Part shown: piece after piece, positions 15,655 to 38,413 of the stretch | How positions within the stretch are numbered: position 1 is the first letter of the stretch | Layout: each line of letters opens with the position of its first letter | Assembly: GCA_023257145.1 (NCBI GenBank) | Contig: JALRDA010000127.1 | Coordinates: 1 to 38,413, forward strand | DNA length: 38,413 bases | DNA from: Candidatus Saccharimonadia bacterium | GTDB lineage: Bacteria > Patescibacteriota > Saccharimonadia > Saccharimonadales > Saccharimonadaceae | Direction: 5' to 3' | Notes under the pieces: generated by a model | What the model was told of the DNA's origin: nothing | What the model saw: only the letters and a program-made list of their open reading frames with translations | Database searches by the model: none | Made by a program: the position numbers and the translations under genes

Positions 15655-16146
15655 TTATTTCACCCAAGGTGACCACAATGTATTATTCGAATCCCAGCCG
15701 ACGGCGCCATAAGATCCTGACCAGCTAGCCACACCGACTAGCGCGCAGGTTTCGGCGCCCCATAAGGTGGTCGAATGTGTTGTAACACCAGTCGCCTGCG
15801 TATATTTGTACTGTGTGCCGTTACGAGAGCGAGCGCTGAGAGCAAATTCATTCGTGCTGTCATTACGGCAAAAGTACAGATTATTTTGCGAAGTTTGATA
15901 TGCCGTACGATTGAATCGCATATCCATTGCGGCTGTCGGTAGCGGATGAACGCCGTTGATGGCATTCTCGGCGGCAATTTTTTTGGCCATCGATGCTAGA
16001 TCATTTTGAACATTAACGTTATATGCTCGGTTTTGAATACCGTTATACGCCACGATCGTAATGGCAGCAAGGATGCCGATAACGACGATGACAATTAGTA
16101 ATTCAACAATAGTAAAGCCAGTCTGATGTTTGTTTTTGGGGTGCAT
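15655..16146 (-). CDS. Type IV pilin-like protein (prepilin N-terminal motif)
   Basis: TGFTIVELLIVIVVIGILAAITIVAYNGIQNRA. Confidence 0.88.
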   Translation of the reverse strand: MHPKNKHQTGFTIVELLIVIVVIGILAAITIVAYNGIQNRAYNVNVQNDLASMAKKIAAENAINGVHPLPTAAMDMRFNRTAYQTSQNNLYFCRNDSTNEFALSARSRNGTQYKYTQATGVTTHSTTLWGAETCALVGVASWSGSYGAVGWDSNNTLWSPWVK

Positions 16147-23920: not shown

Positions 23921-25201
23921 ATGAAAACGAAACTACTTATCTATGGCATCACTGGTGATCTTTCGACGCGCAAATTATTGCCAGCGCTCAAGCAAATTAT
24001 TGGCACTGGTGATTTTAATGATCTTTCAATCATCGGTGTCTCGCGCCGGGAAGTGGATGTTGATGCACTCCTTCAGTCATCACTGGGCGACACAAGTCTG
24101 AAGGATAAGGTTTCGATCTTTTCAATGGACCTTGCGAATGCTAATGATTATCAAAAACTAAAGGAGTATTTGGCGCTCGCGGATGACGAGCAGTTACTGG
24201 CATATCTGTCGGTTCCACCTCAAGCAGCGACAAGTATTGTTGATTTCATGGGTGCGGCGGGAATCAATACGCCAAACGTAAAGATTTTGTTTGAGAAGCC
24301 TTTTGGCGTCGACTTGGCCTCTGCTGAAGATGCTATCTCTCGTACAGCGCGCTATTATCATGAAGATCAGCTATATCGTATCGATCACTATCTGGCAAAA
24401 GAAATGGCACAAAACATTGTCGCATTTCGTGGTGGTAATGCACTGTTTAGTAACATATGGAATAATGTATTTATCGAAGGAATCGAGATTATTGCCACTG
24501 AAAAGATTGGTATCGAGGGGCGAGCTGATTTTTACGAGCAGACCGGCGCATTGCGCGATTTTGTTCAAGGGCATTTGATGCAACTACTGGCGCTGACACT
24601 TATGGATATTCCGCATGATTTCGAATGGTCAGAATTACCGCAGCTTCGCCTGCGTGCGCTTGAACAGCTGCAAATTGCTGATCCAGCAAAAACTATCAGA
24701 GCACAATACGAAGGCTATCAAGACGAAGCACAAAACCCTGGCAGTCTGACAGAGACGTTCGTATCGATCGAGCTGGCATCTAATCAGCCGCGATGGCAGG
24801 ATGTGCCAATACGGCTGGTGACGGGAAAAGCGCTTGATGTAAAGACCTCTGAAATACGCATTCACCTAAAGAAACTACACGAAGCCCAAAGCAACACGAT
24901 CGTCTTTCGTATTCAACCAAATGAAGGTATCGACATCGAGTTGTTCACGAAAAAACCAGGATACGACCGAGAGTTTGAAACGCGCCATCTTGATTTGATG
25001 CTGTCAAACGATGCGCACCTACCTGATGCCTACGAGCAGGTGATCGTCGATGCAATTCGTAGCCATAAGAATCTCTTTACGAGTAGCGACGAAATTCTTC
25101 GTAGCTGGCAAGTTGTAAAGCCAATTCAAGATGCATGGAAAATGGACAATCAGCCGCTACGCCAGTACACACCGCAATCGCGGATCGAAGAGATTATTTA
25201 A
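23921..25201 (+). CDS. zwf: Glucose-6-phosphate 1-dehydrogenase
   Basis: YGITGDLSTRKLLPAL, LFEKPFGVDLASA, YRIDHYLAKEMAQNI. Confidence 0.92.
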   Translation: MKTKLLIYGITGDLSTRKLLPALKQIIGTGDFNDLSIIGVSRREVDVDALLQSSLGDTSLKDKVSIFSMDLANANDYQKLKEYLALADDEQLLAYLSVPPQAATSIVDFMGAAGINTPNVKILFEKPFGVDLASAEDAISRTARYYHEDQLYRIDHYLAKEMAQNIVAFRGGNALFSNIWNNVFIEGIEIIATEKIGIEGRADFYEQTGALRDFVQGHLMQLLALTLMDIPHDFEWSELPQLRLRALEQLQIADPAKTIRAQYEGYQDEAQNPGSLTETFVSIELASNQPRWQDVPIRLVTGKALDVKTSEIRIHLKKLHEAQSNTIVFRIQPNEGIDIELFTKKPGYDREFETRHLDLMLSNDAHLPDAYEQVIVDAIRSHKNLFTSSDEILRSWQVVKPIQDAWKMDNQPLRQYTPQSRIEEII

Positions 25202-25719
25202 CACGCAGCTGATGTGCGAGGGATATAGCGGTACGGCGAATAAGCGGCCGTGCCATTGCCGGTGAATGTTGCAATTTGATCCTGCGAGCAGGATTCTCCC
25301 TCATTTTCATCGAGGATGTACGGATTACCTCGTGCGTCACCCGATTTTAAGCTATCTAGATTCATGCCAGCAGCAGTGCCGATCTTGGTAAGGTTATCGT
25401 AGTAGCGCGTCCAACAGAGATGTGTTTTTGCAAGATCTCTCGGCTCGACATTGCCCGGGTTTCCTGATGACACTGCGCAGCCGCCAGCAGACCAAGTGCT
25501 GCCGGTAATGTCTTTCAAGACCTTGTCGTCATTAATGCGGGCGGCGTGAATCGCTTTAGCGTACAGGGCGGTGTCACTGTCCTTTTTGGCGGTTTTTGCT
25601 CTGTCTTGTATGCCGTTATAGGCAACGATAGTAATCGCGGCTAAAATGCCAATCACCACAATAACGATGAGTAGTTCGACAATGGTAAATCCGGTAGAAT
25701 GTGAGTGAGTTTTGGTCAT
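25198..25719 (-). CDS. Type IV pilin-like protein
   Basis: TGFTIVELLIVIVVIGILAAITIVAYNGIQDRA; start corrected to MTKTHSHSTGF. Confidence 0.87.
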   Translation of the reverse strand: MTKTHSHSTGFTIVELLIVIVVIGILAAITIVAYNGIQDRAKTAKKDSDTALYAKAIHAARINDDKVLKDITGSTWSAGGCAVSSGNPGNVEPRDLAKTHLCWTRYYDNLTKIGTAAGMNLDSLKSGDARGNPYILDENEGESCSQDQIATFTGNGTAAYSPYRYIPRTSAAC

Positions 25720-25800
25720 AATTTTGCTGGATATAATTGGTTTGACTATAGCAAAGAGTAGCCATAACCGCAATTAATTACTCGGCTCAAAGCTCGGGAC

Positions 25801-32611: not shown

Positions 32612-34372
32612 ATGCAAGATGCCAAAGAAGAAGTTAGGGCGCGGCTGAATATTGAAGATGTGGTGGGGGAGTACGTTCAACTAAAGCGTGCGGGGCGCAA
32701 CTTCAAGGGGCTCAGCCCGTTTAGTGGTGAAAAAACACCAAGCTTTATCGTCAGTCCCGACAAACATATTTGGCATGATTTTTCTTCAAACAAAGGCGGA
32801 GATATCTTTTCGTTTATCATGGAAGTCGAGGGAATGGATTTTCGTCAGGCGTTAGAACACCTAGCGCGAAAAGCCGGCGTTGATATGACGGTCTATGAAT
32901 CCAAGGGTAGTCAAGATTTGGCGCGACGAAAAAAACGACTGCAGCAGGCAAGCGATTTAGCGGCGCAGTACTATCAGCATAGTCTACTGAAAAATAAGCA
33001 CGCATTAGAGTACGTTTTCAAAACCCGCGGACTTTCAAAGAAAATTGTCCAAGATTTTAAGATAGGATATGCCCCTACGGGTAGTGACGCTTTGGTGCAA
33101 TTCTTGTTAAAAAAAGGCTTTAGTAGGAACGAGCTAGCCGATGCAGGCCTGACGAATCGGTTTGGTGGTGATTTATTCCGCGGTCGCATGACCGTGCCAT
33201 TGATGGACGGCGCCGGACAGGTGATCGGGTTTACGGCGCGCATTCTTGGTGGCGACGATCCAAATGCGCCAAAATACTTAAATACGCCACAGACGCTGCT
33301 GTATGACAAAAGCCGACATGTTTTTGGCCTGTCGCAGGCAAAAGAGGCGATTCGTACAAAGGACTATGCCGTGATTGTTGAAGGCAATCTGGATGTTGTC
33401 AGTAGTCATCAGGCGGGAGTCGCTGAAGTAGTTGCCACAGCTGGAACCGCAATGACTGAATCGCATCTAAAGGCATTGAAGCGACTTACCGGCCACGTAC
33501 GGTTGGCGTTTGATGCAGATAAGGCGGGGATAGCGGCAACGGAACGCGCGATTCCAATTGCAAACGAAGTCGGCTTGGAACTGACAATTATTAGCCTTCC
33601 TGAAGGCGCGAAGGACCCTGACGAATTGATTCAACGCGATGTGGCGTTATGGCAACATGCAATTGACAGCAGTGTCCCGGCAGTTGATTGGATTTTGACG
33701 CAGTACGCCGCACGTGAAAAACTGGAAACAGCACTGGGTAAACGACGGTACCTGGAGTCGGCGTTCAGGGTGGTTGGATTGTTGTCGGACAATACTTCAC
33801 GGGATCATTATTTGCGAAAAGTCGCCAAACAGATCAATGGTAATTTTAGCTTGGTGCGCGCTGACTTTACGAATCAGGGTGAGGACTACAAAGCGCCAGA
33901 GTTGAAATCATCGACCGCGCCGCTCGACAAGGCAACGTACTATGACGACACATCATTTCAAGATGGCTTATTGTCGGTGGCGATGCTTGAGCCGTCGGCG
34001 CATGAACTTTTTAAAGATATTGATATCAAAATGTTCGAGGGGGAGGACCGCCAAATGCTCGCCGGGTATATTCAGCGTCATCCGGGAATGCGTTTTGATA
34101 CTGTCCCTGACGATTTGCAAAAATATGATACGTATGTAAAAATAGTATTATTAAAAGCCGAGAATCGATATGCTGCGTGGAGCGAACAAGATCGCTACTT
34201 TGAAACAGCACGCTTACTCCGCAAAGTTGAAAATGAACACAAGAAACAAATACAAGAGCAATTAATGCATCAGCTGCGCGAGGCTGAGACCATTGGCGAT
34301 GACGCCAAAGCAACAGAACTGCGCATTCAGCTGAATACACTTATAAAGGAGATTACACGTGGCCAAAGATGA
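32612..34372 (+). CDS. dnaG: DNA primase DnaG with degenerate zinc-binding domain
   Basis: [43 protein letters not shown] and LAFDADKAG. Confidence 0.96.
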
Positions 34373-35366
34373 TATCGTCGCAACAACAGATGAACCAGTC
34401 GAAGAAAACCTGATTATTGATTCAAGTGGAGGTCCCCTTAGCGATCTCGATGAACCAGCACTAGATGAGCTGCTTGACGAAGAAGAAGATAGCGAAGAGA
34501 CAATTAACTCAGGTCAGTACTTCGATGACGTCTCGGATGACAGTGTTCGCTTGTATTTGCGCGAAATCGGTAAGATTCCGCTGCTTAATGCCGAGGAAGA
34601 ATTAGCGCTTGCTAAGCGTGTCGTCGACGGCGACAAAAAAGCCAAAGATAAAATGGCCGAAGCAAACATGCGTCTGGTCGTTTCGATCGCCAAGCGCTAC
34701 AGTGGCCGTGGACTTGATTTTCTTGATCTTATTCAAGAAGGTAATACCGGACTGCTCCGTGCGGTTGAGAAGTTTGACCCAGATAAGGGATTTAAGTTTT
34801 CAACCTATGCCACTTGGTGGATTCGCCAGGCAATTACCAGGGCTATTGCTGACCAGGCGCGAACAATTCGTATCCCAGTTCACATGGTCGAGACGATCAA
34901 CAAATTACTTCGCACTCAGCGCCGTATGACACAGGAACTGAACCGTGAGCCAACCATCGAGGAACTTGGTAAAGAATTAGAGATGGAGCCGGAAAAGGTT
35001 GAGTACGTTATCAAGATCAAGCAGGATATTACCAGCCTTGATGCTGGTGTTGGCCGCGACGGGGAAGATGAAGACTCGGTTCTTGGTGATTTTATCGAAG
35101 ACGAAGACGGCGCTACACCAGAAGAGTCTGCTGCATCGCAGCTCCTAAAAGAGCAGGTGCAAGCTGTTCTTTCAACGCTTTCTGATCGTGAACAGAAAAT
35201 TGTGAAGATGCGTTTTGGTCTTGAGAACGGAAAGAGTCACACTTTGGAAGAAGTTGGACAGGAATTCGCCGTTACTCGTGAGCGTATTCGCCAGATCGAA
35301 GCCAAGGCGCTAGCTAAACTTCGCAAGCATAAAGATGCGAAGAAACTGCACGAATACTTAGGCTAA
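34359..35366 (+). CDS. rpoD: RNA polymerase primary sigma factor
   Basis: [72 protein letters not shown]; 14-nt overlap with dnaG. Confidence 0.97.
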
Positions 35367-35379
35367 GTGATATTTCATT

Positions 35380-35415
35380 AAAATACCTCGCTGTTATAGG
35401 CGAGGTATTTTATTT
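35380..35415. terminator. Bidirectional terminator between rpoD and the P-loop kinase gene
   Basis: AAAATACCTCG CTGTTATAGG CGAGGTATTTTATTT. Confidence 0.85.
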
Positions 35416-35989: not shown

Positions 35990-36079
35990 TCCTTCTAGTA
36001 TATCAGATACACGTTGCGGTTACGCTTGTCTGATGGGCGCAGTAGGCATATCATTAACGCAACAGCAAAGGACTGACAC

Positions 36080-36382
36080 ATGGAGCGATCATTATCGCCG
36101 GCAAATACTTCTTTCAACGAGCACAATTGGCGCGGTGCTGCTGCCTGTCGGGATGTCGGCCCGGATGTCTTTTTCCCCGATAAAGGTCGGTCACCTAAGG
36201 ATGCTAAGGCATACTGCGCGGCATGTGCAGTCAAGCTTCTGTGTCTTGAGGCGGCACTTGCGGTGCCGGCGGGTGATGATCATGGCGTTTGGGGTGGCAC
36301 AACAGTTCGAGAGCGACGTGCCGAGCGAGCAAAGCGGCGCTATCAAGATCACGCGGACGAGCCTGTCGAGGCGGCCTCATAA
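36080..36382 (+). CDS. WhiB-like Fe-S transcriptional regulator
   Basis: W(R)GAAACRDVGPDVFFP, YCAACAVKLLCLEAAL (CxxCx5C), HGVWGGTTVRERRAERAKRR. Confidence 0.93.
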   Translation: MERSLSPANTSFNEHNWRGAAACRDVGPDVFFPDKGRSPKDAKAYCAACAVKLLCLEAALAVPAGDDHGVWGGTTVRERRAERAKRRYQDHADEPVEAAS

Positions 36383-36407: not shown

Positions 36408-38413
36408 ATGACGAAAAAGCTGGCAGTGATTGATGGAAAAAGTGTATTTTATCGAGGGTATTATGCGATGCCGGGACTTAGCCTGTCGGACGGGACGCCA
36501 ACAGGTGGGGTGTTTGGGTTTGCCAGTCTTGCGATCGAGCTAATTAAAAAGCTGGAACCCGACTACGTCGCTGTTGCATGGGATAAAAAGGGCACAAATA
36601 TTCGAAAGCGCCGTGAAATTTACCCAGAGTATAAGGCTGGACGAAAGAAAGCGCCGGATGATTTTTATGCGCAGTTACCATTGCTATTTGAGCTACTCGA
36701 GGCATTCGGCTGGCCATTATACGAACTGGATGATTACGAAGCGGACGACATCCTGGGTGCATTTGCAAAACAGGCTACCGAAAAGGGTATTGATACGTAT
36801 TTACTAACAAGCGATCTTGACGCGCTGCAACTGATTAGTCCGACCACAAAAGTGTACGCATTGAAAAATGGGCTGAGCAATCTCGAAGAATTTGACGTCG
36901 CTTATTTCGAGTCAAAATACGGTATTTCCGTCGAACAGTTCCTTGATCTCAAGTCACTAAAAGGGGATTCATCAGACAACCTGCCTGGCGTGCCGGGTGT
37001 GGGTGAAAAGACCGCAGTACAACTGCTACAAGAATATAAAACGCTTGATAATATCTATAGTCACATCGAGGATATTAAGCCAACGGTCGCTAAGAAATTA
37101 ACCGCCGGCAAAGATCTTGCGTATATGAGTAAAGAAGTTGGCCGTATCTGGACTGATGCGCCGGTTCAGTTGGATTGGGATGTGGCAGACATTAATGACA
37201 TCAACCTACCTGGTGTCGCTGAAATTTTACGTAAGTTCGAGTTCAGTTCGCTTGTGCGCCGTTTACCGAAACACATGCAGGCCACCCCAAATGGGAGCGA
37301 CCAAGTGGGGTTATTTGATGCGCCAGTCGCTTCAACGCTCGTACCTGTCACGGTCAGTGAATGGCCGGCAACGTTGTCGATTGATGGCCCAGTGGTAATG
37401 CATTTTGATACTGATACGACGGAGGTGTGGCTATCACCAAATGCTACCACACTGTATCGCGCACCAATTGACCAAATCGACACCAGTGTCTGGCAGGCGC
37501 TACAGCTGGCAACGGTTATCGGTTACGACAGTAAATTACTGTACCATCAGTTGGCTGATGCGGATGTTACCGTGCGTTTTGATGCGGTGCACGATGTCCA
37601 TCAGGCGGCATTTTTGATCGATCCGCTACAGCGTGATCGTAGCCTTGCGGCGTTAGCTGGCGAGTCAGTAAATGATGCGCCAACGATGATGGCGGCATTA
37701 TGGCGTGTCTATCAGCAGCAAATGCAGGCAATGCAGCGTAACGAGAAACTAGCCAAGGTTGCGAGTGAATTAGACTTTCCATTGACGTATCATCTGTTTG
37801 CGATGGAGCGCCGTGGAATAAAAATAGACCGCACTATGCTAGCAAAGATGAGTGAAGAGTTAGGTGCCGAGCATGGAAAACTTGAACAAGAAATGTATAC
37901 ACTGGCGGGCTATGAATTTAATATTGGTAGTCCTTCACAGTTATCCGATGTTTTGTTTACGAAGCTGCAACTACCAACGACAGGGATTAAAAAGGGCAAA
38001 ACTGGCTATAGTACGGGGCAAAAAGAACTTGATAAATTGCGCGGTCAGCACCCGATCATTGAACTGATTGAACGAACGCGTGAACTTGCCAAGCTAAAAA
38101 ATACCTATATTGATACATTGCCAAAGCTAGCTGATCATAGCGACCGAATTCACACGACATTTAATCAAGACGTGGCAAGTACGGGTCGCTTGAGTAGTAC
38201 GAATCCAAATCTACAGAACATACCGGTGCGCACTGAGCTGGGGCGTAAGATTCGTACGGCATTTATTCCTGAGGAAGGCAATATTTTTGTCAGTGCCGAC
38301 TATAGCCAGTTTGAGCTACGCCTGGCGGCGATTCTGGCTGGTGACGCCGAACTGGTCAACGACTTTAACGGTGATGTTGATATTCACACTAAAACAGCGA
38401 GCCAAGTATATGG
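36408..38413 (+). CDS. polA: DNA polymerase I, truncated by window end
   Basis: 5' nuclease VIDGKSVFYRGYYAM, EADDILG, TSDLDALQL, LKGDSSDNLPGVPGVGEKTA; polymerase STGRLSSTNPNLQNIPVRTELGRKIR, DYSQFELRLAAILAGD; open to 38413. Confidence 0.96.
   Translation, partial: MTKKLAVIDGKSVFYRGYYAMPGLSLSDGTPTGGVFGFASLAIELIKKLEPDYVAVAWDKKGTNIRKRREIYPEYKAGRKKAPDDFYAQLPLLFELLEAFGWPLYELDDYEADDILGAFAKQATEKGIDTYLLTSDLDALQLISPTTKVYALKNGLSNLEEFDVAYFESKYGISVEQFLDLKSLKGDSSDNLPGVPGVGEKTAVQLLQEYKTLDNIYSHIEDIKPTVAKKLTAGKDLAYMSKEVGRIWTDAPVQLDWDVADINDINLPGVAEILRKFEFSSLVRRLPKHMQATPNGSDQVGLFDAPVASTLVPVTVSEWPATLSIDGPVVMHFDTDTTEVWLSPNATTLYRAPIDQIDTSVWQALQLATVIGYDSKLLYHQLADADVTVRFDAVHDVHQAAFLIDPLQRDRSLAALAGESVNDAPTMMAALWRVYQQQMQAMQRNEKLAKVASELDFPLTYHLFAMERRGIKIDRTMLAKMSEELGAEHGKLEQEMYTLAGYEFNIGSPSQLSDVLFTKLQLPTTGIKKGKTGYSTGQKELDKLRGQHPIIELIERTRELAKLKNTYIDTLPKLADHSDRIHTTFNQDVASTGRLSSTNPNLQNIPVRTELGRKIRTAFIPEEGNIFVSADYSQFELRLAAILAGDAELVNDFNGDVDIHTKTASQVY

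Follow-up and report, generated by a model that had tools for sequence, protein, structure and literature searches.

The window, the 38,413-nucleotide stretch of DNA that was analysed, is the entire contig C74 of a genome that totals 854,957 bases, with a completeness of 90% and a contamination of 5.5%. It contains an intact open reading frame, from ATG to TAA, encoding a whiB-like (Wbl) protein of 100 amino acids. An AAGGA sequence resembling a ribosome-binding site lies shortly upstream of the ATG. The surrounding genes and candidate signals are the following.

32612..34372, plus strand: dnaG, primase, the upstream end of a conserved block
34359..35366, plus strand: rpoD, primary sigma factor, the presumed partner of the Wbl protein
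35379..35412, plus strand: terminator-like hairpin 3' of rpoD, with a 14-bp stem and a 6-nt loop
35414..35989, minus strand: P-loop nucleotide kinase-like gene, a member of the conserved dnaG-rpoD-kinase-polA block
35990..36079: divergent intergenic region between the kinase gene and whiB, with a weak promoter-like site at 36026-36054 (plus strand, 9 of 12 matches)
36080..36382, plus strand: the Wbl gene, 100 aa, assigned by PF02467, PDB WhiB matches and an AF2 model
36408..38411, plus strand: polA, DNA polymerase I, the neighbour conserved downstream of whiB, truncated at the end of the contig

The preliminary description, which listed polA among the neighbours, pointed out that rpoD lies about 0.7 kb upstream of whiB. 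The distance is correct, as rpoD ends at 35366, 714 bp away. However, the closest conserved neighbour is polA, a point that was missed: only 25 bp separate the whiB stop codon from the polA start on the same strand. A common operon of whiB with rpoD was rejected, since the convergent kinase gene and the strong terminator-like hairpin lie between them. Two other ORFs of the window, 15655-16146 and 25198-25773, both on the minus strand, have a type IV prepilin-like N-terminus (GFTIVELLIVIVVIGILAAI). In the genus-mate G003 a gene resembling these ORFs sits between whiB and polA (L080:6204-6728).

The assignment of the ORF at 36080-36382 to the WhiB family, proposed from its signature, is confirmed. 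In the Pfam profile search the protein matches PF02467 with 69.5 bits (E=3.7e-19; the cut-off is 23.6), and it matches PHROG 472, "WhiB transcriptional factor", at 5.9e-21. The closest PDB sequences are Streptomyces venezuelae WhiB (1.8e-14) and WhiB1 of Mycobacterium tuberculosis. An AF2 model (pLDDT 82), for which 20 Saccharibacterial Wbls were aligned, matches 14 PDB chains, all of them Wbl, the best being 8dy9 (TM-score 0.78 by target length). The four-cysteine signature C...CxxCx5C (C23, C46, C49, C55) is complete, W17 is present, and the GVWGG turn (69-73) is followed by the basic C-terminus RERRAERAKRR (77-87). Thus the ORF encodes a genuine Wbl protein. Its predicted functional positions are the following.

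36146..36148, plus strand: Cys23, the first predicted cluster ligand, invariant in 43 aligned Saccharibacterial Wbls and in A2
36170..36178, plus strand: F31-F32-P33, by alignment the counterpart of the sigma-4-contacting aromatics F17/F18 of WhiB1 (role from PMC10245118)
36215..36244, plus strand: C46-x2-C49-x5-C55, the other predicted cluster ligands, invariant in 43 of 43
36284..36298, plus strand: G69-V-W-G-G73 beta turn, with W71 equivalent to W60 of WhiB1; the first G, the W and the next G are invariant in 43 of 43
36305..36340, plus strand: basic C-terminal tail VRERRAERAKRR, residues 76-87, a putative DNA contact by sequence, with a helix at 76-92 in the model

In the alignment of the 43 Saccharibacterial Wbls, C, G, W and G are absolutely conserved, and W3, F17, A28 and K29 are found in at least 90%.

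The whole-genome search gave a single PF02467 match (69.7 bits). No 16S gene was detected in the window's own genome, and for this reason the 16S genes of relatives were considered. Those of four genomes of the same family, including the Wbl carriers G052 and G041, have zero mismatches to four Saccharibacteria-specific primers from PMC6073563, of which TM7314F alone is not fully specific, as it also matches 6 of the 345 genomes that lie outside the class. The window genome is placed in this family by the grouping of the genome collection used. Given these exact matches, the proposed name Saccharibacteria was accepted for the window genome.

One might suspect an assembly chimera or contamination by actinobacterial DNA, as the bin has the contamination score given above. 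However, this is extremely improbable and was rejected. The order rpoD-kinase-whiB-polA is identical in the genus-mate G001, where the gap between whiB and polA is 18 bp, and the independent genomes G003, G082 and G395 show it as well. The GC3 of whiB equals that of its flanks (0.495 vs 0.45-0.50), its total GC being higher (0.58), and its nearest relative is the Wbl of G001 from the same locus. The dnaG-rpoD-kinase-polA block is retained in relatives both with and without whiB. The flanks are Saccharibacterial and the layout is common to sister species.

Of 151 sampled relatives, 58 carry Wbl genes, as do 45 of the 103 high-quality genomes among them. Across an evenly drawn sample of the phylum they occur in 18 of 381 genomes, all of one class, which has 36 members in the sample; none was found in the 345 other genomes, class membership being counted from the phylum Wbl search together with the primer search. 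Wbls are thus common in Saccharibacteria and absent from the sampled remainder of the phylum. Wbl proteins have been described as exclusive to Actinobacteria (Bush 2018, PMC6282962; PMC8612146). Searches of the open-access literature yielded no account of a Wbl in Saccharibacteria, Patescibacteria, TM7 or the candidate phyla radiation, nor any paper reporting one outside Actinobacteria and their phages. Single-sequence scans of genome and viral contigs with the window protein gave no match, as the protein is too divergent.

In 15 of the 21 carriers of the family, the Wbl gene lies between rpoD and polA or immediately ahead of polA, invariably in the direction of polA and in many cases 14-65 bp from it. 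A matching layout was found in G117, from another family of the order (L130, gap 16 bp). This placement is not chance when compared with a random position in a 0.9-Mb genome (binomial), the figure being formal only, as the carriers share descent. The occupants of the slot span class II, class I and divergent Wbls.

Several observations concern the neighbourhood and architecture of these genes. Second sigma-70 paralogues of 319-458 aa lie inside the rpoD-polA interval of relatives, in two genomes alongside Wbls:

L091:895-2214, L092:941-2977, L106:6782-8137, L108:6248-7624, L118:918-2255: second sigma-70 paralogues in the interval

The ORF L126:15-1817 starts with a superfamily II helicase/ResIII region and has a C-terminal Wbl domain, a possible helicase-Wbl fusion. 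Long N- or C-terminal extensions of the Wbl domain (ORFs of 250-960 aa) occur in L081, L083, L084, L085, L087, L124, L131 and L137; those scanned gave no additional Pfam match. The Saccharibacterial relative G110 contains four Wbl genes in tandem (L132:6141-7888).

The whiB genes diverge much more than their neighbours. Between G001 and G003 they are 45% identical, whereas dnaG, rpoD, the kinase gene and polA are 89-97% identical; between the window and G001 or G003 the values are 51-52% for whiB and 76-95% for the neighbours. Either the slot is repeatedly refilled, or the Wbl evolves fast. One possibility is an insertion hot spot between rpoD and polA, with the Wbl as a transient and mostly useless import. 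The cargo of the interval is indeed varied in relatives (second sigma factors, prenyl synthase-like genes, a prepilin), and on the polA tree, which has 22 carriers, the presence of Wbl switches 18 times. Nevertheless this explanation is unlikely, as the cysteines and sigma-contact residues persist at 45-52% identity, the frame is intact, the direction is always that of polA, and the GC3 is ameliorated.

In a tree of 120 Wbl domains (77 columns, with many forks unresolved) the window protein falls into the class II clade, which contains Streptomyces WhiB and Mycobacterium WhiB2 (support 99/98), its exact position being uncertain due to the long branch (2.26). Its neighbours there are the Wbls of the genus-mates G001 (94/87) and G003. 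Many Saccharibacterial Wbls are divergent on the tree. Five others (L086, L094, L096, L121, L084:4811-5206) belong to the class I clade (100/99), that of M. tuberculosis WhiB1, and are 68-81% identical to actinobacterial class I proteins; the window protein is not of class I. L097 pairs with L325, another actinobacterial paralogue (100/85), and the best matches of the G011 Wbl, at 80-89% identity, are from Micrococcales (Microbacteriaceae and relatives). Well supported branches require the Saccharibacterial label to change eight times or more, and thus a single recent transfer was rejected. The tree and the occupation of the slot by class II, class I and divergent Wbls show several separate origins, by acquisition from Actinobacteria or their phages. 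The direction was probably from Actinobacteria to Saccharibacteria, directly or via phages, given the nesting and the absence of Wbls elsewhere in the phylum. Transfer from a host had been suggested in the preliminary description; the actinobacterial or phage origin agrees with the tree and the matches, but the gene is a recurrent occupant of a fixed slot rather than a single acquisition.

The likeness to class II extends to structure and motifs: S. venezuelae WhiB (8dy7, 8dy9) is the best PDB and fold match, and the cysteine spacing, FFP, G[IV]WGG and the ERR tail are the same. On the other hand, the window protein has two extra residues ahead of GVWGG, reaches no more than 48% identity over the 77-column domain with any of the sequences compared, and is encoded beside polA in a non-actinobacterial cell that has no SUF and no IscU/SufU scaffold. 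WhiA, the protein with which class II Wbls act, was not detected there either, by a search that also missed Bacillus subtilis. Wbls of actinobacteriophages, such as WhiBTM4, are 46-48% identical to the window protein, and are also carried by an antagonist of Actinobacteria. Unlike them, the window gene is chromosomal and located in a conserved housekeeping block. A phage or prophage setting was rejected, as no phage-like genes are seen among the ORFs of the window and the flanks are housekeeping genes.

In M. tuberculosis the complexes of WhiB1 and WhiB3 with region 4 of sigma-A are driven by F17/F18 and W60 (WhiB1 numbering) and by H516 of sigma-A (PMC10245118). Single changes in the counterpart residues of WhiB3, or in H516 (including H516A), abolish the WhiB3 complex (PMC10245118). 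The counterparts of F17/F18 and W60 are present in the window protein. The corresponding site of the sigma factor is different.

35322..35330, plus strand: R322-K323-H324 of RpoD, aligned to R515-H516-P517 of M. tuberculosis sigma-A, with lysine as the counterpart of H516

The same R-K-H, instead of R-H-P, is found in the RpoD of the window genome and of family members with or without whiB, so that the co-variation of sigma-4 with Wbl presence that was looked for was not observed. Histidine is also missing at the H516 position in the RpoDs read from other patescibacterial classes, and thus the change in the sigma factor predates the Wbls. Binding to RpoD would have to use another contact, perhaps the neighbouring histidine, or be weaker. 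Still, as the contact face of the Wbl is conserved, RpoD binding is the likeliest predicted function of the window protein.

The predicted ligands of an O2- or NO-sensitive 4Fe-4S cluster are present. However, the window genome lacks both PF01458 (SufB/D, SmsB core) and PF01592 (IscU/SufU), which are absent from 140 and 134 of the 151 genomes, respectively. Both models are sensitive, with hits in 14 of 14 and 12 of 14 controls, respectively. Neither SufBD nor IscU/SufU occurs in any of the 58 carriers, and none of the 21 genomes bearing either scaffold has a Wbl. Although the raw Fisher p-value is 1.7e-5, all 19 scaffold-bearing family genomes on the polA tree are in one Wbl-free clade. Repeated exclusion was therefore rejected: phylogenetically this is one event, and a single split within the family is no evidence of antagonism between Wbl and scaffold. 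Within the family, SUF and IscU/SufU are confined to this clade (G005, G010, G014, G070 and others), and most other sampled Saccharibacteria lack both. B. subtilis has a WhiA, and since the PF02650 search missed it in this control, the absence of WhiA from all 151 genomes is a weak result.

No radical SAM protein was detected in the window genome; such proteins are present in ten carriers, where some Fe-S supply may exist. The preliminary suggestion of a redox or NO sensor partnering RpoD is thus weakened by the missing scaffolds and by the lysine at the H516 position, whereas the partnership with RpoD stays plausible due to the retained contacts on the Wbl side.

Another explanation is that the Wbl holds no cluster, the four cysteines forming a thiol/disulfide switch or a site for another metal, and that DNA or sigma is bound in that form. 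This is a minority possibility, yet one to be taken seriously: all cysteines are kept though no carrier has the scaffolds, the window genome has no detected radical SAM client, disulfide reductase activity of Wbls has been proposed earlier, as noted in Bush 2018 (PMC6282962), and apo-WhiB1 binds DNA (PMC10245118). However, the ten carriers with radical SAM proteins imply that some cells must obtain 4Fe-4S clusters without these scaffolds, the single phylogenetic split is not repeated evidence, and the sigma-binding form of actinobacterial Wbls is the holo form.

Cultivated members of the Saccharibacteria class live on Actinobacteria, as parasites. The Wbl might act on transcription in the actinobacterial host, which has Fe-S assembly and a sigma-A of the RHP type, similarly to the Wbl of phage TM4. 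The repeated acquisition from Actinobacteria or phages, the absence of an own scaffold, the lack of an H516 counterpart in the own sigma-4 and the very fast divergence within a fixed slot are consistent with such a role, and WhiBTM4 represses host whiB2 (PMC8612146). We consider it very unlikely, as no secretion signal is evident by eye in the window Wbl, a slot adjacent to polA does not suggest an effector, and a route of delivery into the host would be required. Only slightly better is the chance of a broader proposal, that Saccharibacteria repeatedly took Wbls from the Actinobacteria they prey on, or from phages of these, and, lacking the usual Fe-S machinery, employ them as regulators that are host-directed or dependent on a host cofactor. 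If this were true, such a Wbl would work only with or inside an Actinobacterium, and would let the parasite influence transcription in the host or sense contact with it.

The explanation we prefer, with about an even chance of being right, is a domesticated, class II-derived, sigma-4-binding Wbl, resident between rpoD and polA and co-expressed with polA. It builds on family membership, chromosomal residence, the slot and orientation by polA, the several origins, and the conserved cysteines and sigma-4-contact aromatics. The whiB gene would be co-transcribed with polA, and its product would dock on RpoD of the same cell, at region 4, via F31/F32 and W71. From there it would guide RNA polymerase on a number of promoters, that of whiB among them, and thereby tie polA-linked repair or replication to the state of redox, NO or host contact. 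If the cofactor is the usual 4Fe-4S cluster, the cell would need to make or acquire it by a way other than SufBD or IscU/SufU. Several facts speak against this reading: the standard 4Fe-4S route is missing from the window genome, in which no SUF core, IscU/SufU or radical SAM was detected; the H516 essential for WhiB3 is lysine in the family RpoDs read, and not histidine in those read elsewhere in the phylum; WhiA was not detected, though by the weak search described above; and the identity of whiB within the genus, 45-52% against 76-97% for its neighbours, is unusual for a housekeeping regulator.

The window contains a real Wbl, resident and recurrent: the protein family is known, but the phylum is new for it and its molecular setting is changed, and its regulatory function is predicted. 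Wbls are common, and repeatedly acquired, in a second phylum, contrary to the statements restricting them to Actinobacteria (PMC6282962, PMC8612146). If functional, the Saccharibacterial Wbls amount to a natural experiment on the requirements of a Wbl, as their carriers have no SUF, no IscU/SufU and no sigma histidine of the kind required by WhiB3. In genomes under approximately 1 Mb, defined candidates for regulators of the epibiont lifestyle are few, and these Wbls are among them.
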